Assembly: GCF_000020485.1 (NCBI RefSeq) | Contig: NC_011899.1 | Span: 2,426,501-2,490,500, forward strand | Direction: 5' to 3' | DNA length: 64,000 nucleotides | DNA from: Halothermothrix orenii H 168 | GTDB taxonomy: Bacteria > Bacillota > Halanaerobiia > Halanaerobiales > Halothermotrichaceae | In this document: positions 33,523 to 44,045 of the stretch, piece by piece | Position numbering within the stretch: position 1 is the first letter of the stretch | How the letters are laid out: the number at the start of each line of letters is the position of its first letter | The notes under the pieces: generated by a model | Database searches by the model: none | Told to the model about the DNA's origin: nothing | The model's input: the letters and a program-made list of their open reading frames with translations, nothing else | Position numbers and translations under genes: made by a program

Positions 33523-35502
33523 TTAAAATTTTTCAAAATCGTCCTCATTAAACTTAATCTCTTCTTCCCTTTCCAGTAATAAACCTTTTTCACCCTTATT
33601 ATTCATGGCCTGTTTCAATTTGCTACCATTATCACCCTCCCCAGACACCTCATCAGTAGTATTTAACTTAAACTTCCTGACCAGAGCCATCATCTCTTCA
33701 GACTCGTCATTGAGTGATTCACTGGCACTGGCAATCTCTTCCACAAGGGCTGCATTCTGCTGGGTCACCTGGTCCAGCTCACTGACCGATGTTTGAATTT
33801 GTTCAGCGGCAGAAGCCTGTTCCTGCATAGCTGCAGCTATTTCTTTAATGGCCTGGGTGGTCTGCTTACCGTATTCAACGATTTCATTTAATGATTTGCC
33901 GGTCCTGTCAACTAGCTGATTACCATCTTCAATCTGTTTAATAATACTGGTAATTAATTTTTCGATCTCACCGGCAGACTCTGCTGTCCTACCGGCCAGG
34001 TTCCTGACCTCTGCTGCCACAACAGCAAATCCTTTACCGTGTTCTCCAGCCCTTGCTGCCTCTACAGCAGCATTTAATGCCAGCAAATTGGTCTGAAAGG
34101 CAATGTCGTTAACCGTGGTAATAATATCAGCTATCTGTTTGCTGCTTGCCGTAATTTCAGACATTGACTGCATTGTCTTTTCAACAACCCGTGACCCCTG
34201 TTTTACGACATCCATTGTTTTTTCACCCAGATTTTCTGCATTTTCAGAGCTGGCAGCAACCTCTTCAATGGCTGATGATACCTCTTCAATGGTTGCAGAC
34301 ACTTCTTCAAGGGAAGAAGCCTGTTCCTGGGTTCGCTGAGATAAGTCCTGGTTTCCTTCAGCTATTTCATTGGAAGAATTAGTTACCCCTGCCGATGCCT
34401 TTTTGACCCTGTTTAGCATATCCTCAAGATTATCGATGGTCCTGTTAAGATCTTCAGCCATTCTCCCCAGTTCATCATTACTCTTTACATGTACCTTGTC
34501 AGTAAAATCCCCATCAGCAACCTTACCTAATACCTTCTGAATATTATAGATTATTTTGGCAATTGAGCCAGTTACAAGGTAAACAATTATGGAAATAATT
34601 ATAAACAGAGCCAGATAACCTATAATTGACTGTTGTGTCAGTTCCCGGGCTGCTACAGTTAACTCCTCTACCGGTACAGTAAGACCAAGTGACCAGTCTA
34701 CCCATTCAACCGGATGGTAGAATACATACTTTTCTACACCCTGGTATGTATATTTATCTCTATCGGTTTCTCCTGCTATCATTTTCCTGGTTATTTCTAT
34801 CAACTTCTGGGTGCTTGTCTGATCATTTAGTAAATTCAACTCCATTGACTGGGTTGGATGAGCAACTACAACTCCATCACTTTTTACCAGGTAGGCATAA
34901 CCGGTCTCCCCGAGTTTAAAGTCGTTTACAATATTTTGTAGTGGTTTTAATAATACCGTCCCCCCGACAATAGCCACCGTCTTCCCGGTGTTATCTTTTA
35001 CCGGGACTGCAATAACAAAGACATCCTGGTTGGTCAGGCGGGAATGGATGGGGTCACTGATATAAAGACTGTCAGTCTTTTTCACCTTCTGGAAAAAGTC
35101 TCTATTTGTATAATCATATATTTTATTATCCTGGGTAGTCCAGGTATTACCCTCTAAATCCATCAGTAAAATATTTTCATATGTTCCTTCAAGTGATTTC
35201 CTCTCTAATTCTTTTATGTATAACCAGCCTGATTCCTGATTTAAATTCCAGCCCTCTTTCAGGTCTATTGCTTTAGATAAAACCTTGACTTCATTAACCT
35301 TTGCTTCAATCCAGTTATTCACCAGCCTGGCCATAGCCTCAACCTGCTGGTTACCATTTTCCTCAACAATCTCCACTACATGGTCCACAGTAGAATTATA
35401 ATTAACAAATAAAACAACTCCAAGAATAACAAGTAAAGGCACCAGTATAAAAGTCAACAATTTATTCCTGACTGTAAGGCGTTCTTTGAAAAATTTAAAC
35501 AT
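33523..35502 (-). CDS. Methyl-accepting chemotaxis protein (Cache), last gene of the che operon
   Basis: Protein of 659 aa. It has TM1 ('LLTFILVPLLVILGVVLFV'), an extracytoplasmic Cache domain ('NILLMDLEGNTWTTQDNKIY', 'FKLGETGYAYLVKSDGVVVA'), TM2 ('IIGYLALFIIISIIVYLV'), HAMP and a signalling domain with tip '[20 protein letters not shown]'. The family-typical 'HPTQSMELNLL' in the sensor suggests a small-molecule ligand. The C-terminus ends in an acidic tail ('EIKFNEDDFEKF') without an obvious CheR-tethering pentapeptide. It lies 33 bases after cheB and so is expressed with the pathway. Confidence 0.95.
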   Translation of the reverse strand: MFKFFKERLTVRNKLLTFILVPLLVILGVVLFVNYNSTVDHVVEIVEENGNQQVEAMARLVNNWIEAKVNEVKVLSKAIDLKEGWNLNQESGWLYIKELERKSLEGTYENILLMDLEGNTWTTQDNKIYDYTNRDFFQKVKKTDSLYISDPIHSRLTNQDVFVIAVPVKDNTGKTVAIVGGTVLLKPLQNIVNDFKLGETGYAYLVKSDGVVVAHPTQSMELNLLNDQTSTQKLIEITRKMIAGETDRDKYTYQGVEKYVFYHPVEWVDWSLGLTVPVEELTVAARELTQQSIIGYLALFIIISIIVYLVTGSIAKIIYNIQKVLGKVADGDFTDKVHVKSNDELGRMAEDLNRTIDNLEDMLNRVKKASAGVTNSSNEIAEGNQDLSQRTQEQASSLEEVSATIEEVSSAIEEVAASSENAENLGEKTMDVVKQGSRVVEKTMQSMSEITASSKQIADIITTVNDIAFQTNLLALNAAVEAARAGEHGKGFAVVAAEVRNLAGRTAESAGEIEKLITSIIKQIEDGNQLVDRTGKSLNEIVEYGKQTTQAIKEIAAAMQEQASAAEQIQTSVSELDQVTQQNAALVEEIASASESLNDESEEMMALVRKFKLNTTDEVSGEGDNGSKLKQAMNNKGEKGLLLEREEEIKFNEDDFEKF

Positions 35503-35535: not shown

Positions 35536-36597
35536 CTACCTGTGGTTATTATTTAATTTTAAAAATATCTTATCGACTATTTCCCCGGTTGAAACCTCTT
35601 CGTCAACAGCACCTATTTCAATAGCTTTTCTGGGCATACCAAAAATGGTCGCCGTTTCCCTATCCTGGGCAAGTGTATAACCACCTGCTTGCCTGATTTT
35701 CTTTAAACCCCTGGCACCATCCTGGCCCATACCTGTAAGCAGGACACCGATGGCGTTTTTCCCGGCACATTCTGCCATTGATTTGAAGGTTACATCTACA
35801 GCAGGGCGCTGGTGGTGAATTTTTTTATTTTTATTTAGCCTTATATAAAAGTTATGCCCTTTTTTTAATACCTCCAGATGATAACCGCCCGGGGCCACAA
35901 AGGCTGTTCCCGGTTTGACAATATCACCGGTTGCAGCCTCCCTTACATCAAGAGTGCTTATGTTATTTAACAGCCGGGCAAAAGAATTGGTAAACCCGCC
36001 TGGCATATGCTGTACAATTACTATACCAGGAGATTCCCTGGGGAACCCTGGTAGAATATACTTAATCGCCTTCACCCCACCAGTAGAAGCCCCGATTCCT
36101 ATGATATACCTTGAAAGTAAATTGCTGTATCTTAGCTTGTTAACCTTCTTACTAACAGTAGATGTCCTGTATCGAAAACTGGTCAATTTCCTCACATCTA
36201 CCCTGGCAGCAACCTTAACTTTGTTAATAATCTCCTGTTGAAATATTTGCCTTTCCTTATTACCAAATATACACGGCTTGGCAACAAAATCAACTGCCCC
36301 TTCGTTTAATGCCTTTAGAGTAATTTCACTTCCTCTGGTAGTAAGGGTGCTCACCATAATAACTGGCATAGGATGGGAAGACATAAGCTTTTTAAGGAAC
36401 TCAAGTCCATTCATTCTGGGCATCTCTACATCAAGCGTTAGAACATCAGGTTTTAAACAGGTAATTTTACTTACAGCTTCATAGGGGTCTCTGGCAGTAC
36501 CAACCACAGTAATGTTATTATCCTTTTCCAGGGTGTTTGTTAATATTTTTCTTACCATAAGAGAATCATCAATTACTAAAACCCTGATTTTACTCAT
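35536..36597 (-). CDS. cheB: Chemotaxis protein-glutamate methylesterase/deamidase CheB
   Basis: Protein of 353 aa. The receiver domain (1-120) has the acidic pair in 'VLVIDDSLMVRKIL', the phospho-acceptor in 'LTLDVEMPRMNGLE' and Lys in 'FVAKPC'. The C-terminal methylesterase domain has its catalytic Ser in 'GIGASTGGVKAI', His in 'IVQHMPGGFT' and Asp in 'GMGQDGARG'. It removes methyl groups from receptors when phosphorylated by CheA. The start at 36597 (AAGGA upstream) overlaps cheD by 8 bp; the ATG at 36609 lacks a spaced SD. Confidence 0.95.
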   Translation of the reverse strand: MSKIRVLVIDDSLMVRKILTNTLEKDNNITVVGTARDPYEAVSKITCLKPDVLTLDVEMPRMNGLEFLKKLMSSHPMPVIMVSTLTTRGSEITLKALNEGAVDFVAKPCIFGNKERQIFQQEIINKVKVAARVDVRKLTSFRYRTSTVSKKVNKLRYSNLLSRYIIGIGASTGGVKAIKYILPGFPRESPGIVIVQHMPGGFTNSFARLLNNISTLDVREAATGDIVKPGTAFVAPGGYHLEVLKKGHNFYIRLNKNKKIHHQRPAVDVTFKSMAECAGKNAIGVLLTGMGQDGARGLKKIRQAGGYTLAQDRETATIFGMPRKAIEIGAVDEEVSTGEIVDKIFLKLNNNHR

Positions 36598-37096
36598 TAA
36601 CTGATACATCCTTTATTTCAGTCATTTTGATTTTTCGTGAAAAGACATTTTTACGGGGCCAGAAATATATCTGCCTGCCATGTTTCCCCCCAACATCCCT
36701 GGCAATAATGGGTATACCTTTCTTTTTTAAAAATTGTATTGCCAGTCTAATGTTTGCCCGGGCCACATTACTATGGGTTGTTCCTGCAACCTGTCCTCCA
36801 CCAAACACCTTAGCGGTCATATAATTAATCCGCGCCCCCCTCTTCTCCATTTCCGTAATTAGTAACTCCATTGCATCTTCACCATATTTTCCAGAATAAA
36901 CATTATTACTTTCACGGACTCTGGTTGGTAACATAAAATGATTCATACCATATACAGAATTAAAATCATCACTTAAACAGACAGCAACACAGGAACCCAG
37001 CAGAGTAGAAATAATAACATCACTACTAGTTGTAACGTAAAATTCACCGGCGAAAATAGTTTTAACTTCCCTTCTACCCAATCTTTTATGCTCCAT
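36590..37096 (-). CDS. cheD: Chemoreceptor glutamine deamidase CheD
   Basis: Protein of 168 aa (or 171 from the GTG at 37105). The catalytic Cys is in 'TLLGSCVAVCLSDD', His in 'YGMNHFMLPT', and the glycine-rich turn is 'VFGGGQVAGTTHSN'. CheD deamidates receptor glutamines; in Bacillus and Thermotoga it pairs with the phosphatase CheC. No cheC is present in this operon. It overlaps cheR by 11 bp and cheB by 8 bp, so the three are translationally coupled. Confidence 0.93.
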   Translation of the reverse strand: MEHKRLGRREVKTIFAGEFYVTTSSDVIISTLLGSCVAVCLSDDFNSVYGMNHFMLPTRVRESNNVYSGKYGEDAMELLITEMEKRGARINYMTAKVFGGGQVAGTTHSNVARANIRLAIQFLKKKGIPIIARDVGGKHGRQIYFWPRKNVFSRKIKMTEIKDVSVNE

Positions 37097-38015
37097 CTCT
37101 TTCACCCTTGCCTGTTTTCTGATAGGTTGTCTGCCAGACTAATTTCCATCGGTTGTTTTTTGCTCTACTGTTATTTATAGATTCAGAATGTCCTAAAAAT
37201 AAATAACCATTATCCTTGAGAAGTCTATAAAAATGCTCAAGTATCCTGGCCCTAATTTTATGGTTAAAATAAATAAACACATTACGGCAGAAAATAAAAT
37301 CTAGTTTTGACTCAATCTGATAACTACCAGAATTCAAATTTAACTTTTTAAAAACAATTAACTTCTTAATATCATCCTTTACTTTAAAAAGACCTTCATT
37401 GTCCCCTGTTCCCATTAAAAAATATCTGGACAATAAATTATAGGGTATATTTTTTACCTGCTGGTAATTATAGATACCCTCTCTTGCCATATTCAAAACC
37501 TCAGTATTTATGTCAGTAGCCAGAATCTTTATATCCCATTCAGGGCCAAAATGGTCATAAAGAATTATTGCCAGGCTATAGGCTTCTTCACCACTTGAAC
37601 AGCCCGCACTCCAGACCCTAATTTTTTTATTATGTTTTTCCTGCTTCAGTTCAGTAAAAACCCTGTTTTTGAGAAAAGCAAAATGATGAATTTCCCGAAA
37701 AAAATTAGTGACATTAGTAGTCAGAAGGTTAATAAGCTCTTCCAGCTCACTGGTATCTTTTTTAAGTAACTGATAATACTTATTAAAATTAGTTAACCCC
37801 AGCTCTCGCAAACGTCTGGAAAGCCGCGAATAGACCATATACTTTTTCTTATCAGTAAGTTTTAACCCAATTTTCTCATGGACGAGTTTGCTGATTTTCT
37901 GAAATATTTCATCACTCATCTCTGCCTTTACTCCCCGTATGCCCTCTTTTCCCATATCCTGACCTTCCCGCCTTATAATGTTATTATGCTCCTTATCCAT
38001 ATTATGGTCTCTCAT
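37086..38015 (-). CDS. cheR: Chemotaxis protein methyltransferase CheR
   Basis: Protein of 309 aa. A helical N-terminal domain ('IFQKISKLVHEKIGLKL') precedes an SAM-dependent methyltransferase domain with 'VWSAGCSSGEEAYSLAI', 'ILATDINTEVLNMAREG', 'FIFCRNVFIYF' and 'GYLFLGHSES'. It methylates glutamates of the chemoreceptors. The ATG at 38015 overlaps the cheW stop by one base (TGATG). The first 20 residues are not typical, and an ATG at codon 21 with AAGG before it is an alternative start. Confidence 0.93.
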   Translation of the reverse strand: MRDHNMDKEHNNIIRREGQDMGKEGIRGVKAEMSDEIFQKISKLVHEKIGLKLTDKKKYMVYSRLSRRLRELGLTNFNKYYQLLKKDTSELEELINLLTTNVTNFFREIHHFAFLKNRVFTELKQEKHNKKIRVWSAGCSSGEEAYSLAIILYDHFGPEWDIKILATDINTEVLNMAREGIYNYQQVKNIPYNLLSRYFLMGTGDNEGLFKVKDDIKKLIVFKKLNLNSGSYQIESKLDFIFCRNVFIYFNHKIRARILEHFYRLLKDNGYLFLGHSESINNSRAKNNRWKLVWQTTYQKTGKGERDGA

Positions 38016-38671
38016 CAGGAATTACTGCAGTTATCAACCCGTTCATCGTCTTTTTCAGGTAAATAAATTTTACTGTCACTATTTTCATCATCTTCATTAT
38101 TATTATCAGTTTCAACGTCCCTGTTACCTTCATCTTCACTATCAATCTTTTCCCCAAGTCTATTAATAGCACCCAGTTCATTAAAGTTAAGCAACATATC
38201 AAGCTTTAATAGCATGATAAGCCTCTCATCAAGTTTTGCCATACCATCAATAAACTCTACATTGATATCAGAGCTAAACTCCAGGGTTCTCTGGATATCC
38301 TCACTTGAAAAACTGAGTATATCTGACACCTGATCAACAATTATACCCAGTATTTTTTCTCTTACTTCCAGAACAATAATGACAGTAAAATTGTCATACT
38401 CCCTGTAGGGAAAACCAAATTTCTTCCTTAAGTCTATAACCGGAATAACCTCACCCCTGAAATTAATTACCCCTTTAATAATGTCTGGAGTATTGGGTAT
38501 TTTAGTAGGTTCATGGTAACGGATAATCTCCTGAACCCTTAATACATCTACCCCATATTCCTCTTCTTCAATTTTAAAAGTCAAAAACTGGTTCTCAGCA
38601 GATATACTGGTTAACTGCTGGTTCAGTATATCCAGTGTATTATCCTGCTTTCCCCTTGCTTCCCCACTCAT
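38015..38671 (-). CDS. cheW: Chemotaxis coupling protein CheW with acidic tail
   Basis: Protein of 218 aa. The CheW domain (about 25-165) shows 'FLTFKIEEEEYGVDVLRVQE', 'GVINFRGEVIPVIDLRKKFG' and 'LDMLLNF'. It links CheA to receptors. About 50 extra residues at the C-terminus are strongly acidic and Asn-rich ('DVETDNNNEDDENSDS'), giving a disordered tail not found in standard CheW proteins. An SD GGGGGGGAC lies before the ATG. It sits between cheA and cheR. Confidence 0.94.
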   Translation of the reverse strand: MSGEARGKQDNTLDILNQQLTSISAENQFLTFKIEEEEYGVDVLRVQEIIRYHEPTKIPNTPDIIKGVINFRGEVIPVIDLRKKFGFPYREYDNFTVIIVLEVREKILGIIVDQVSDILSFSSEDIQRTLEFSSDINVEFIDGMAKLDERLIMLLKLDMLLNFNELGAINRLGEKIDSEDEGNRDVETDNNNEDDENSDSKIYLPEKDDERVDNCSNS

Positions 38672-38691: not shown

Positions 38692-40791
38692 TTAATTAAC
38701 AGCCATCCTGATAATAGTAGATACATCCAGTATCATGGCAACCCTGCCGTCACCCATAATAGTTGCTCCTGCAATTCCGTCAATAAATGTATAATTATCT
38801 TCCATACTTTTCACCACTGCCTGTTGCTGGCCAACAATTTCATCGACCAGCAAACAGAGTTTGCGGTTTTCATCCTGTAAGATAACCAGTATACCCTCGG
38901 TTGGGTCAGTTTTACTGCCCTTTAAATTAAACAATTTATAGAGCCTGCTCAAAGTTATATATTCGTCCCTGACTTTAACTACCTCTCCCTTGCCATTAAC
39001 TGTTTTTATATGCTCAGGTAGTGGCCTGATAAACTCAACTATAGAATTCAACGGTATAATAAACTGTTCATCTCCGACTTTAACATTCATTCCATCAATT
39101 ATTGCCAGTGTCAGCGGGAGTTTTATTTTAAACCTTGTCCCTTCGCCCGGGTTGCTAAATATATTAATAGTACCTCTAAGCTGTTCAATATTATTCCTGA
39201 CTACATCCATTCCTACCCCGCGTCCTGAAGTCTCTGTAACTTCTTCACTTGTGGAAAGACCTGGTTCGAATATTAGCCGGTAGATTCCCTGTTCTGTCAG
39301 TTCCTGGTCTTCATCGACTACCCCCCGGTTGATAGCTTTATCCAGTATTTTCTCTTTATCCAGACCCCTACCGTCATCGGCAACCTCAATGATGATATTC
39401 CCTTCCTGATGATAAGAATTCAATGATATCGTACCAACCCTGTTTTTTCCCAATGCTTCTCTTTCTTCAGGTGGTTCTATTCCGTGGTCAACTGAATTCC
39501 TGATCATGTGTTTTAAAGGATCATAGATTCGTTCAATAACAATTTTATCCAGTTCAGTCTCTTTACCCCTTATTTCCAGATTGATTTCTTTTCCCTGTTC
39601 TCGTGATAGGTCCCTGACCAGCCTTTTGAACCTAAGAAATGTATTACCAATGGGAACCATTCTTACTTTCATAATATCTTCCTGCAGGTTACGTATCCTT
39701 TTATCAACCGAATTTAAGGCAGTCATTATCTCATTTTCAGACCTGTCGGTTCTATGAATAACTAATTCCCTGACCTTGGCCTGGGCAATTACCAGTTCAG
39801 CCATAGAATTCATTAGGGACTCCAGTTTATGCGTATCTACCTTAATAGTACTCTTTTCCTTTACCGCCCGACTTTTGTGCTGGTCATAAACAACCCTCTG
39901 AACCTGTTCCCTGCTTACCTTTCCTTCCTCAGTTAATATTTCTCCAATCTTTTTTTGCCTTGCAAGGGCCTGTGTGATATCTTCTTCTTCAACAATCCCT
40001 CTCTCAACCAGTATTTCACCTGTCTTTTTATCTGACAGGGAAATGTCAATATTGTCAGAGAAATTTTCTGTGATATCTTCAATTTCTACCTTATTATCAA
40101 CCTGAACAAAAATAAAGACATCCTTTATCCTATCAATTCCTACCCCGGTTTTAATTAAGATAGTTAATGTAAGATAACATAATTCAGGATCAAGGTTGTA
40201 TAAGTCAGGTACCCTGGTATAATTGACTGCCACCATCAATATGTCACTAAATTCCCTTAGTTCCCTGACAAGCATCAAGGGGTCTGTACCTGTTTCAAAT
40301 AAATTGGGATTGAAATCGAGTTTAATACGGTAACATCTTTCCCCTGTACCAAAATTATGTAGATTATCTCCAAGACTTCCTTCCTCAGAAGGAGTATGTT
40401 CTGTTTGATCCTTCAACAACTTTTTAATTTCCCATATAATAGACTCAACTTTCTCATTTTTAACCTGCACATCATCATTACCTAGCGCTTCAACCATTTC
40501 TCCAATCAGGTCAGTACATGTGAGTAATAAATTAATAACCTTATCATTTACTGTAATACATCCTCTTCTGACCTGGTCCAGTAAATCCTCAGAATGATGA
40601 ACAAAATTAGCAATATCGTTAAGGCCTGTTAGACTGGCACTTCCTTTCAGAGTATGCATCCCCCTGAAAATGTTATTAATCAAATCCATATCACCTGGTT
40701 TTGCCTCCAGCTCAAGCAGGTCTACTACCATCTTATCCAGTAATTCCTTTGCCTCTTCAATAAAGGTATTAAGCAGGTCTCCTTCAGTCAT
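38692..40791 (-). CDS. cheA: Chemotaxis histidine kinase CheA with inserted helical repeat module
   Basis: Protein of 699 aa. The P1 phospho-acceptor is His46 in 'RGMHTLKGSASL'. Residues of about 155-240 form an uncommon intermediate domain. Residues 257-300 hold two related motifs, 'TGEILVERGIVEEEDITQAL' and 'IGEILTEEGKVSREQVQRVV', like the N-terminal module of GspE/MshE-type proteins. P3 dimerisation follows near 315-370. The P4 kinase boxes are 'HMIRNSVDHGIEPPEER', 'VADDGRGLDKEK' and 'TSGRGVGMDVVRNN', and the P5 CheW-like regulatory domain is 'INVKV'-like to the end. It phosphorylates CheY and CheB. Confidence 0.96.
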   Translation of the reverse strand: MTEGDLLNTFIEEAKELLDKMVVDLLELEAKPGDMDLINNIFRGMHTLKGSASLTGLNDIANFVHHSEDLLDQVRRGCITVNDKVINLLLTCTDLIGEMVEALGNDDVQVKNEKVESIIWEIKKLLKDQTEHTPSEEGSLGDNLHNFGTGERCYRIKLDFNPNLFETGTDPLMLVRELREFSDILMVAVNYTRVPDLYNLDPELCYLTLTILIKTGVGIDRIKDVFIFVQVDNKVEIEDITENFSDNIDISLSDKKTGEILVERGIVEEEDITQALARQKKIGEILTEEGKVSREQVQRVVYDQHKSRAVKEKSTIKVDTHKLESLMNSMAELVIAQAKVRELVIHRTDRSENEIMTALNSVDKRIRNLQEDIMKVRMVPIGNTFLRFKRLVRDLSREQGKEINLEIRGKETELDKIVIERIYDPLKHMIRNSVDHGIEPPEEREALGKNRVGTISLNSYHQEGNIIIEVADDGRGLDKEKILDKAINRGVVDEDQELTEQGIYRLIFEPGLSTSEEVTETSGRGVGMDVVRNNIEQLRGTINIFSNPGEGTRFKIKLPLTLAIIDGMNVKVGDEQFIIPLNSIVEFIRPLPEHIKTVNGKGEVVKVRDEYITLSRLYKLFNLKGSKTDPTEGILVILQDENRKLCLLVDEIVGQQQAVVKSMEDNYTFIDGIAGATIMGDGRVAMILDVSTIIRMAVN

Positions 40792-40807: not shown

Positions 40808-41182
40808 CTATTTAATAAACTTTCTGGCAACACTAATTAGCTGTTCAGGTTTAAATGGTTTAACAAGCCACCCTGCCGCCCCGGCTTCTTTTCCCTTTAA
40901 CTTCATTTCTTCCTGGGACTCTGTTGTCAGGACAAGAATAGGAATAAACTTAAACTGCTTTTCTTTTTTAACCTCTTTAATGAAGGTTATCCCGTCCATC
41001 CGGGGCATATTAACATCAGTAATAATCATCCCGGGTTTTTCTCTGGATTGTTCTTTCAGGATATCTAAACCTTCCTGCCCGTCTTCAGCCATAATAACTT
41101 CATAGCCGTGTCTGGCCAGGGCATATCGGACTGAAGCCCGTACAGTTTTAGAATCATCAATAACCATGATTTTTTTTGCCAA
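40808..41182 (-). CDS. cheY: Chemotaxis response regulator CheY
   Basis: Single receiver domain of 124 aa. It has the acidic pair in 'KKIMVIDDSKTVRAS', the phospho-acceptor in 'IITDVNMPRMDGITF', Thr in 'VLTTESQEEM' and Lys in 'GWLVKPFKPEQL'. A TTG at 41182, giving the standard M-A-K-K-I beginning, is preferred over the ATG at 41197, which has no SD; GGGGG lies eight bases before the TTG. It overlaps the STAS gene by 26 bp. It is the expected soluble output regulator to the flagellar motor. Confidence 0.92.
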   Translation of the reverse strand: MAKKIMVIDDSKTVRASVRYALARHGYEVIMAEDGQEGLDILKEQSREKPGMIITDVNMPRMDGITFIKEVKKEKQFKFIPILVLTTESQEEMKLKGKEAGAAGWLVKPFKPEQLISVARKFIK

Positions 41183-41453
41183 CCTCAACACCCCCATCCA
41201 GGAGCCAGTCCAATCCTGCTAGTTCAAGGGCCTCAATAAGTGGTTTTACAGAATTTTTCAGGGTTAACTGATCAACACTCTTCCTCAATGATAGCAACAA
41301 TTGAACTCCAGCACCATCTACTGTTTGCAATTCTTTGCAGTCAATAATAATTTCATCTGTCTTCTGTAACACATCTAATAATTTCTCTTTAAATTTGTGT
41401 ACTGTATAGATTGTTAATTCAGAAGGGGCAATAATAGTTCCATTGGTGTCCAC
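41157..41453 (-). CDS. STAS-domain protein
   Basis: Protein of 98 aa with the STAS fold of anti-sigma-factor antagonists. The position of the regulatory phosphoserine (D-S-S-G in SpoIIAA) reads 'TVDGAGVQLLLSL', so it cannot be phosphorylated there. STAS proteins of this small DxAGxQLLLSL kind often sit in chemotaxis operons beside receptor-like proteins. No anti-sigma kinase is nearby. It probably serves as an interaction module in the chemosensory complex. Confidence 0.83.
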   Translation of the reverse strand: MDTNGTIIAPSELTIYTVHKFKEKLLDVLQKTDEIIIDCKELQTVDGAGVQLLLSLRKSVDQLTLKNSVKPLIEALELAGLDWLLDGGVEVGKKNHGY

Positions 41454-41557: not shown

Positions 41558-43432
41558 CTAAAACAGAGTTAATTCCCCACCTTCACTACCCACATCAATA
41601 TTCAGATCCGAAAGCTCTTCACTGGCCGTTTTTCTTTCCAGATAACTGGTAAATTCATTAACAAGGTCATTTAACCTGTCATTACTCCCTTTTTGGTTAT
41701 TTAATTTAAACCCAATCAGGTACCCATTTTTAAATTTATCCACCTCTTCTTTTACTTCTTTAAAATAAGCAATTATTTTTTGCCCATCTTCTTTCAAGGC
41801 AAAAGCATTTTTTATGTTTCCATTTACTTCTGCAACTTCTTTCACCAGTACCAGCACAGCAGAACGAAAATCCTCAACCGTACTGCCAATCAGTTTAATT
41901 GAAAGCTTAAGTTCTTCCTCTGACTCCTCAATAATCTGGATTGCTTTTCTAATACTCTCTATATTACCGTTTGCTAAATTCAGAAATTGACCATATTCAT
42001 CTTCCAGTTCATTTTTTAAATCTGTATATATCCTGTTATTCCTGTTGCTAGTGTTAATAACATCATCAATAGCTTTTTCTATAGCCCCAGTAAAAATATT
42101 TCTATTTTCCATTTTAGTAAATTCAATTTTCGCCAGGAGTTTAATTTTACAAAACCAGTCACTGATAGTAATAATCTCATTAAATCCATTCTCAATACCA
42201 TCCATATTGTTAAAAAAACCACTACTTCCATCAACCAGCTTAAGGTATTCTTCTAAAAGGCATGATAGTTTCCTGTTAAGGCGGGGAATAAAATCCATAA
42301 GTTTGTGAAAAATAAAACTTATTTTTGATGTCATCCCCCCACTTTCTAAGTCACTTATACTAAAAAAAAGGTCTGGGGAATTATTCTCCATTAACCTTTC
42401 GAGTCGCTTTTCCATGTTTTCAAGCCTGTTCTGAATGGCAAACAGGGAATCATATAACTGGTTTATAATGTTATCCATCAATTTCTGCCCGAGTCCAGAT
42501 ACATCAGTTAAAAAAGTTAATACGTCAAATACTTTTTCTATTTCGACAGGGTCTGTTAAATCAGCTTTTTTTAAATAACTTACTTCCTTCCTTGTTTTTC
42601 CAATAATTTTAATCAAGTTTTCAACATTCTGTCTTATAATGTCCTGATTCTGAAGAAGAATTATTATATCATAAACAGGATTGATAGCTTTATTTATACT
42701 ATCAGTTACTTCTTTTAATTTTTCTGATATATCATAAAGGGCATTAAATATATTATTAAAAATACTTTCAAGTTTATTACGGTAATCTAAAGCAATTTTT
42801 TCTTCCTCTGAAACCAGTTGTTTAATACCGGTTGTAAAATTACCATGCCAGTTATGAAGCGATTTAATATTGTTCTCAATTACCCGATATCTATCTTTTA
42901 TCTTTTGTGACAGGTTATTTATCTCATCAGAAATAACTTTAAAACCCGCCCCATTGTTACCCGATTTAAAGGCAACAATATTTGCATTAATTGATAATAT
43001 ATGAAGCTGATTAAGAACAGACTCTAGCTCCTTAATTAATTGCAGAACCTGTAAAATTCTGGCCTGCTCATCATTACTATTATTTAGTAAAAAACCTTCC
43101 AGCATGCTCGATATCTCATCTCTAGCTGAAAGTGAACTATAAACCTGTTCAATTTTTGTTTTAAAGTCATTGACAACCCTGGTTACCTTACTAAAATTAT
43201 GTTCACTATTATTTTCAATAAAAAAATCTGTGAGTGACTCCATTTCTTTGGCTGTATTATCAACCTTTTCTTCTAATAAAGGTAACCTGTCAGAAATTTG
43301 GCCATAAAGAAACCCGGTATGTTCAATCATACCATTCAGGACCTCAATACTATTTTTAAAAACACAATCCAGCCAGTCCACTAATTCTATTACTCTTCCT
43401 TTAACATTTTTTGACTGTATTACTTCCTGCAA
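41558..43432 (-). CDS. Soluble MCP-like protein with a CheZ-like DxxxQ motif
   Basis: Protein of 624 aa, entirely helical and without membrane segments, first gene of the che operon (TTG start, GAGGGG ten bases before). Residues 136-195 are a degenerate MCP hairpin: 'LNQLHILSINANIVAFKSG' and 'GAGFKVISDEINNLSQKIK' match the conserved tip [25 protein letters not shown] with many replaced residues. Residues 259-275 read 'LLQNQDIIRQNVENLI', resembling the CheZ active-site helix (Q-D-L-T-G-Q; Asp and Gln four apart), here Asp264 and Gln268. The C-terminus ends 'GGELTLF'. It may be a cytoplasmic adaptor or the missing CheY-P phosphatase; this is inference. Confidence 0.8.
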   Translation of the reverse strand: MQEVIQSKNVKGRVIELVDWLDCVFKNSIEVLNGMIEHTGFLYGQISDRLPLLEEKVDNTAKEMESLTDFFIENNSEHNFSKVTRVVNDFKTKIEQVYSSLSARDEISSMLEGFLLNNSNDEQARILQVLQLIKELESVLNQLHILSINANIVAFKSGNNGAGFKVISDEINNLSQKIKDRYRVIENNIKSLHNWHGNFTTGIKQLVSEEEKIALDYRNKLESIFNNIFNALYDISEKLKEVTDSINKAINPVYDIIILLQNQDIIRQNVENLIKIIGKTRKEVSYLKKADLTDPVEIEKVFDVLTFLTDVSGLGQKLMDNIINQLYDSLFAIQNRLENMEKRLERLMENNSPDLFFSISDLESGGMTSKISFIFHKLMDFIPRLNRKLSCLLEEYLKLVDGSSGFFNNMDGIENGFNEIITISDWFCKIKLLAKIEFTKMENRNIFTGAIEKAIDDVINTSNRNNRIYTDLKNELEDEYGQFLNLANGNIESIRKAIQIIEESEEELKLSIKLIGSTVEDFRSAVLVLVKEVAEVNGNIKNAFALKEDGQKIIAYFKEVKEEVDKFKNGYLIGFKLNNQKGSNDRLNDLVNEFTSYLERKTASEELSDLNIDVGSEGGELTLF

Positions 43433-43550
43433 TATAGAACCACCCCTCTCTCAGGGTAATAAATAACAGTATTTACTTGCTCCGTCATTTTTATGCAATT
43501 AACCTATTTACTATAAATATTAATATATTAATTCAAATATTTAATTATAA

Positions 43551-43871
43551 ATTTCGCAAAAGGTATATTATGTAAATTATATTTTAATATTTTTACATTT
43601 TAAGTTACTAATAAAATTATTATATATTTTTTGTAATATATGCTAAGGAAATAAATATTTAATTTATATACTTTAAGGTAAAATTTTAATAACAATAATA
43701 GGGCCAAAGTCCTAATGAATTCAGTCAAATATATAAAAATGCAGGATTTTACTGATTTATGTAGAACACACTGTATGTAATAGTTTAAATTAAATATAAA
43801 ATATTGTATTATGGGTATATGATGATATCGTGGTAAGAATTTACTGGAATAAAATATACCTTTTGCGAAAT
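43551..43871. repeat. MITE-like segment with 19-bp perfect terminal inverted repeats
   Basis: ATTTCGCAAAAGGTATATT at 43551-43569 is the exact reverse complement of AATATACCTTTTGCGAAAT at 43853-43871, and weaker complementarity continues outward. The 283-bp interior is AT-rich and non-coding. No target-site duplication could be fixed by eye. Confidence 0.55.
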
Positions 43872-44011
43872 ATAATAAAATTTTTTACATTATTTCCAGG
43901 ACATAAGTTGGGTTTTTTAAGACCTGGAAAAACCCGTCACGCCATTTTTGTCTAAAGCTAAAGCCAGATCAATAAACATTATAAAAATACTTGTAAAGCT
44001 AGCATACCAAT

Positions 44012-44045
44012 AAAAAAAAAGAGGGGATATCCCCTCTTTTTTTAG
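44012..44045. terminator. Bidirectional terminator downstream of cysC
   Basis: The palindrome GAGGGGATATCCCCTC (44021-44036) is flanked by A9 on the left and T7 on the right, so it can terminate in either direction. It ends the sat-cysC transcript on the minus strand. Confidence 0.85.

Follow-up and report, generated by a model that had tools for sequence, protein, structure and literature searches.

The phosphatase CheZ is defined by the two elements AxxF(Y)Q and DxxxQ, and its most conserved site is the glutamine preceding the catalytic aspartate (PMC7750401). The acid and the amide of DxxxQ coordinate the attacking water, and a helix-borne phosphatase pair of this kind is also found in HisKA_3 kinases such as NarX (PMC3510030). 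CheC, CheX and FliY use an acid and an amide as well, although in another fold and with an ExxN motif. For pathways without a recognized CheY phosphatase, as in Geobacter, a CheZ-independent mechanism has been called for (PMC2577667). A second chemosensory operon containing cheD, with an anti-sigma factor antagonist encoded beside the che genes, is known from Shewanella (Che1, CrsA/CrsR; PMC9855816). Within the accessible part of that source, no MCP-like protein with a QDxxxQ motif is described. Here, such a protein (MLP) from a second chemosensory operon of Halothermothrix orenii H 168 is compared with these systems. Altogether, it is assumed with a probability of roughly 60% that MLP is a CheZ-like DxxxQ phosphatase of CheY-P, which would be carried by a receptor-derived arm, would hold CheY by a C-terminal tether and would be dedicated to the second pathway.

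The MLP operon and the flagellar gene set

The analysed window is a stretch of 64,000 nucleotides corresponding to positions 2426501-2490500 of the complete 2.58 Mb chromosome. On its minus strand it contains a che operon with the order MLP-STAS-CheY-CheA-CheW-CheR-CheD-CheB-MCP. The MLP gene (41558..43432, minus strand) is the first of the operon, starts with TTG and encodes a soluble protein of 624 aa. It is followed, on the same strand throughout, by the gene of a 98 aa STAS-domain protein (41157..41453), assigned by a Pfam-type domain match and synteny, and by the cheY of the second system (40808..41197), for which the TTG at 41182 is the probable start. The active site of this CheY is intact, comprising the acidic pocket, the phospho-acceptor Asp, Thr and Lys. 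CheA (38692..40791) showed Hpt, dimerisation, ATPase and CheW-like domains. CheW (38015..38671) was assigned by its domain match, CheR (37086..38015) by domain match and blastp to relatives, and CheD (36590..37105) and CheB (35536..36609) by domain matches and relatives. The last gene encodes a transmembrane MCP (33523..35502), whose C-terminal pentapeptide DFEKF belongs to the CheR/CheB-tether type, in which it differs from ELTLF of MLP.

Several further observations were made in and around the operon. Between the Hpt and dimerisation domains of CheA, Pfam gave no match for a CheY-binding P2 domain; residues ~255-310 of this region contain two short repeats, ILVERGIVEEEDITQALARQKKIGEILTEEGKVSREQV, which appear MshEN-like. 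The AT-rich region upstream of the operon contains a 22-nt inverted repeat (43548-43569 and 43853-43874, 95% complementary, 283 nt apart), possibly representing regulator sites. A perfect 15-nt inverted repeat with a T run (44014-44043) resembles a terminator and lies between an adenylylsulfate-kinase-like gene and the che operon.

The chromosome encodes two CheA, since a flagellar-type set cheY-cheA-cheW-cheW-cheC-cheD is located at ~817-822 kb, separate from the MLP operon. In the first-pass annotation, MLP was suggested to be the missing CheY-P phosphatase of the che operon. It was correctly recognized that no cheC, cheX, fliY or cheZ is present in the MLP operon, but such a phosphatase is not missing from the genome: cheC is found at 821003 in the flagellar che set and fliY at 1796944-1797345 among flagellar genes of the same chromosome. 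A cheC elsewhere in the genome was one of the two objections to its proposal that the annotation had named. In consequence, MLP can at most be a phosphatase specific to the pathway of the second operon. The same situation is encountered in relatives. CheC/FliY-type genes were present in all 24 searched genomes carrying MLP-type proteins, CheX-type genes in several of the genomes searched, and CheZ (PF04344) gave no match above the cut-off in any of the 24. Phylogenetic exclusion is therefore uninformative, and it is the absence at the level of the operon that helps instead. The wide occurrence of these genes could also mean that the flagellar CheC or FliY acts on the second CheY-P as well, with another role left for MLP. 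We consider this very improbable, since the genes of both accompany the flagellar set with its different CheY, and the conserved linkage of MLP to cheY would stay unexplained.

Architecture of MLP and its conserved QDxxxQ helix

ORF, hydropathy, Pfam and structure prediction agree with the earlier description of MLP as a membrane-free, helical, MCP-like protein. No membrane helix was found (maximum 19-residue Kyte-Doolittle value of 1.25), and the AF2 model is almost entirely helical with a pLDDT of 79.5. The sole Pfam family above its cut-off was MCPsignal (PF00015, 46.7 vs 34.6 bits, residues 84-248). CheC and CheX profiles were not among the Pfam matches of MLP, and CheZ (PF04344) gave no MLP match even at E<=1. 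In a PDB profile search, residues ~75-256 matched chemoreceptor domains of cytoplasmic or soluble type, among them 2ch7 and the T. maritima domain 3g67. When PDB structures were searched with the fold of the AF2 model, generic coiled-coil and MCP matches were obtained only. Neither a sensor domain nor any other domain was found in MLP, as is the case for some soluble receptors. A search of IMG/VR revealed no relative, and a plasmid search yielded for MLP only ordinary MCP-type matches.

Based on the family alignment and the PDB profile matches, residues 136-195 (42848..43027, minus strand) comprise an MCP hairpin tip, which is still recognizable but degenerate, as had been annotated. It reads INANIVAFKSG and deviates from the NxxxEAARAG conserved in receptors: N149 is invariant, while the Glu of NxxxEAA is replaced in all ten members of the family. 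Another conserved segment of the alignment, KIKLLAKIE (residues 429-437; 42122..42148, minus strand), was placed by a second HH alignment on the tip of the small family described below. It resembles a further receptor tip in strongly degenerate form, so that MLP may have arisen by an internal duplication of a receptor hairpin.

The ten-member alignment comprises relatives of 21-42% identity. Relatives were obtained as one full-length protein in the same order (30%), others across the phylum, and further named ones, the named set including Halanaerobacter, Orenia, Fuchsiella, Candidatus Frackibacter and Thermincola. MLP carries the sequence LLQNQDIIRQNVENLI, in which D264 (codon 42641-42643, minus strand) and Q268 (codon 42629-42631, minus strand) were found four residues apart as annotated. 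Based on conservation and predicted helicity, the putative active-site helix QNQDIIRQNVEN covers residues 261-272 (42617..42652, minus strand). This is the best-conserved 12-residue window of the whole alignment, its score being reached in 24 of 5000 column permutations, and five of the 24 invariant columns belong to it (Q261, Q263, D264, Q268 and E271). A bare DxxxQ is common by chance, with two occurrences in MLP and 2-6 per family member. The other pair of MLP, D478/Q482, is not conserved, while D264/Q268 is kept in 10/10 members, an invariance not expected by chance. The relatives keep QD[IL][IL][RE]Q, MLP itself showing QDIIRQ, and the distance from the tip Asn to D264 amounts to 115 residues in every member.

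In the AF2 model, the motif is located on a helix of residues 252-289, set off from the preceding chain by a break of one residue (251). In a helical wheel oriented by the hydrophobic moment, both families show the Asp at ~110 and the Gln at ~162 degrees away from the centre of the hydrophobic face, so that both residues lie on the polar side; for CheZ, the same measure gives 159 and -149 degrees. This phase argues against a burial of the D264 and Q268 side chains, an objection that the first-pass annotation had raised against its own proposal. PDB profile searches with the motif regions matched chance helices only.

Compared to the definition of CheZ, the DxxxQ pair preceded by Gln is present in MLP, with Q263, D264 and Q268 invariant in ten members. 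Of AxxF(Y)Q, only the Q is kept in the MLP family, position -2 being occupied by N, K, S, H or R. The conserved helix could also be explained by a docking or structural element without catalysis, binding CheY, STAS or a partner helix, e.g. in order to sequester or localise CheY. The invariant polar residues Q261, Q263 and E271 exceed what a catalytic pair comprises, Q263 sits in the middle of the hydrophobic helix face like a buried structural polar residue, and STAS is a near-constant neighbour. Nonetheless, we regard a docking helix as rather unlikely, because in both families Asp and Gln retain the CheZ spacing together with the preceding Gln, while the residues between them vary. In CheZ, too, it is the Gln before the Asp that is most strongly conserved (PMC7750401).

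After the motif region, the second conserved island of the MLP family is the C-terminal element FTSYLERKTA...GGELTLF (residues 594-624; 41561..41653, minus strand), delimited by family conservation. It aligned with YTTxxERxNH...NVELF of the small family. The tail ends in LF. CheZ also possesses a conserved C-terminal tail, but one of different sequence. By analogy, it is proposed that GGELTLF tethers CheY. A function of ELTLF as CheR-tether pentapeptide was considered as well and is judged unlikely, since the MCP of the operon has DFEKF and the second position of ELTLF is not aromatic.

A small family in other Firmicutes and the relation to CheZ

A tip-free profile of MLP residues 228-292 retrieved its own family and, in addition, small proteins of other Firmicutes (alignment of n=17, a few of them near-identical). 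Their coiled arm is combined with [FY]QDxxxQ, an element resembling YTxxxER and, at the C-terminus, N[VI]E[LIF]F. An MCP-type tip is present in most of them and is near-canonical in much of the family. The distance from tip to Asp is again 115 in 8 of the 11 members with a pattern-recognizable tip, the remaining three showing 108, 118 and, in an ORF that extends into masked sequence, 112. D and Q are constant, in contrast to the position directly ahead of the Gln, where R, A, G, S, T and Y occur. All aligned members retain F(Y)Q, and the variant FQDIAGQ comes close to the FQDLTGQ of CheZ. Since the ORFs were labelled by the motif pattern, the presence of the motif in this list is partly a result of selection. 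All small-family matches of a profile built from the C-terminal parts carry the motif, and this profile also retrieved the MLP family, including MLP itself with an E of 5e-4. The tip-free profile-profile comparison of the two families placed motif on motif with 86% probability and, more weakly, tail on tail with 18%. A plasmid search with the small-family C-terminal part gave no matches.

The usual gene order in the small family is cheA-STAS-MLP-cheY. This block is constant in the loci L097, L099, L133-L136, L138, L139, L141 and L142, the che operons of which otherwise differ, and its STAS gene has a short form of 84-90 aa. The CheY proteins encoded near MLP-type genes match the CheY of the window with 47-68% and are closer to it than to the flagellar CheY. 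The small-family genes of L101 and L103 are located away from che genes. One member of 217 aa (L137:8400-9053, plus strand) directly follows cheY and combines FQDITRQ and the tail LGNNVELF with one N-terminal hydrophobic stretch of membrane type. Lacking a receptor tip, it is comparable to CheZ in size and in gene position.

The detection of the MCPsignal domain, the cytoplasmic receptor domains such as 3g67/2ch7 as the closest solved structures by sequence, and the near-canonical tip in much of the small family could be explained by MLP being a degenerate soluble chemoreceptor or array scaffold, which conveys a cytoplasmic signal to the second CheA and uses the motif for packing or methylation. 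This explanation appears improbable. The tip Glu is lost throughout the MLP family, the protein of L137 keeps motif and tail without any tip, and in a set of 72 receptor-like ORFs with canonical tip, the tail never occurs where the motif is absent. Moreover, a complete MCP with a tether of the CheR type is already encoded in the operon. In general, MLP shares with the MCP domain the match of residues 84-248 and the recognizable tip region, but differs in the lost Glu and the missing sensor domain, whereas ordinary MCPs lack the invariant QDxxxQ and the C-terminal tail, which in MLP is no pentapeptide of the CheR type.

When the small family was compared with five CheZ sequences, FQDxxxQ aligned in exact register at an HH score of 33.7 and a probability of 60%. 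Column-shuffled controls scored 11.8+/-2.2 with a maximum of 19.0, and 0 of 200 reached 33.7. When the seven motif columns were masked, the score dropped to 13.9 and thus to the baseline. The likeness of the small family to CheZ is therefore beyond chance but depends on the motif; it possibly reflects a short homologous remnant, convergence or another role of the helix. For the MLP family, the direct HH comparison with CheZ remained at the baseline. Pfam matches of CheZ on the small family (E 0.001-0.02) were discounted, because ordinary MCPs score as well.

Altogether, MLP and CheZ have in common a QD[LI]xxQ that occupies the polar face of a long helix, a helical build, a conserved C-terminal tail with a hydrophobic end (mostly F) and a gene position often beside cheY. 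On the other hand, an overall sequence match is lacking, and MLP has a receptor-type hairpin and tip. The residue before the Gln is Gly in CheZ and R267 in MLP, the tail is VDDLLxSLGF compared to GGELTLF, and MLP is three times larger. Since there is no overall match, MLP is not filed as a CheZ but is proposed to work like one.

Proposed function and its implications

From family, invariance, spacing, linked tail and gene neighbourhood, all read from the sequences, we infer catalysis, CheY binding, a place in the array and a role of STAS as follows. D264 and Q268, spaced by one turn of the long helix and facing the solvent, would enter the active site of CheY, where Q268 would orient the attacking water and D264 would contact Mg2+ or the active-site pocket. 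The conserved tail ending in GGELTLF would tether CheY like the C-terminal peptide of CheZ. The receptor-derived hairpin would serve as a rigid arm, holding the phosphatase site 115 residues from the receptor-like tip and perhaps setting it in or near the receptor-kinase array. The proposed removal of CheY-P is also the task of CheC, CheX and FliY, which are, however, encoded elsewhere in the genome. Compared to NarX, which carries the same type of helix-borne pair (PMC3510030), MLP has neither a phospho-accepting His nor a kinase domain. Thus, of the earlier proposal, the receptor-derived phosphatase is retained, as it agrees with the invariant CheZ-type pair, the operon free of known phosphatases and the wider set of cheY-linked proteins, while its being the missing one had to be given up.

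A STAS gene was found by synteny in the MLP neighbourhood of nearly all relatives, and this conserved neighbourhood suggests that STAS and MLP may be linked. Together with the precedent of Shewanella Che1, it makes STAS a good candidate for binding to MLP. In some relatives, the MLP gene is adjoined by an additional STAS-like gene, which contains a DITNS motif (L056:8746-9054, L060:8794-9105), and the downstream neighbour of the MLP gene in L060 resembles, by eye, an RsbU-type phosphatase. Both observations suggest a partner-switch output.

No CheZ-like phosphatase on an MCP scaffold was found in the open literature, which is weak evidence of novelty, since most subscription papers lie outside this scope. 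The small family is what CheZ resembles, and CheZ may thus descend from a receptor-derived phosphatase that lost its tip. In a wider and more tentative sense, chemoreceptor-like proteins with QDxxxQ and an LF-type tail, which recur in che operons of Firmicutes and are labelled as MCPs by profile, might be overlooked CheY-P phosphatases, with CheZ perhaps descending from a tip-less one like that of L137. Many che operons contain no recognized CheY phosphatase, and, if the assumption is true, this gap would partly close. Furthermore, proteins now labelled as receptors would be given another function, and a route by which CheZ may have arisen would become testable.
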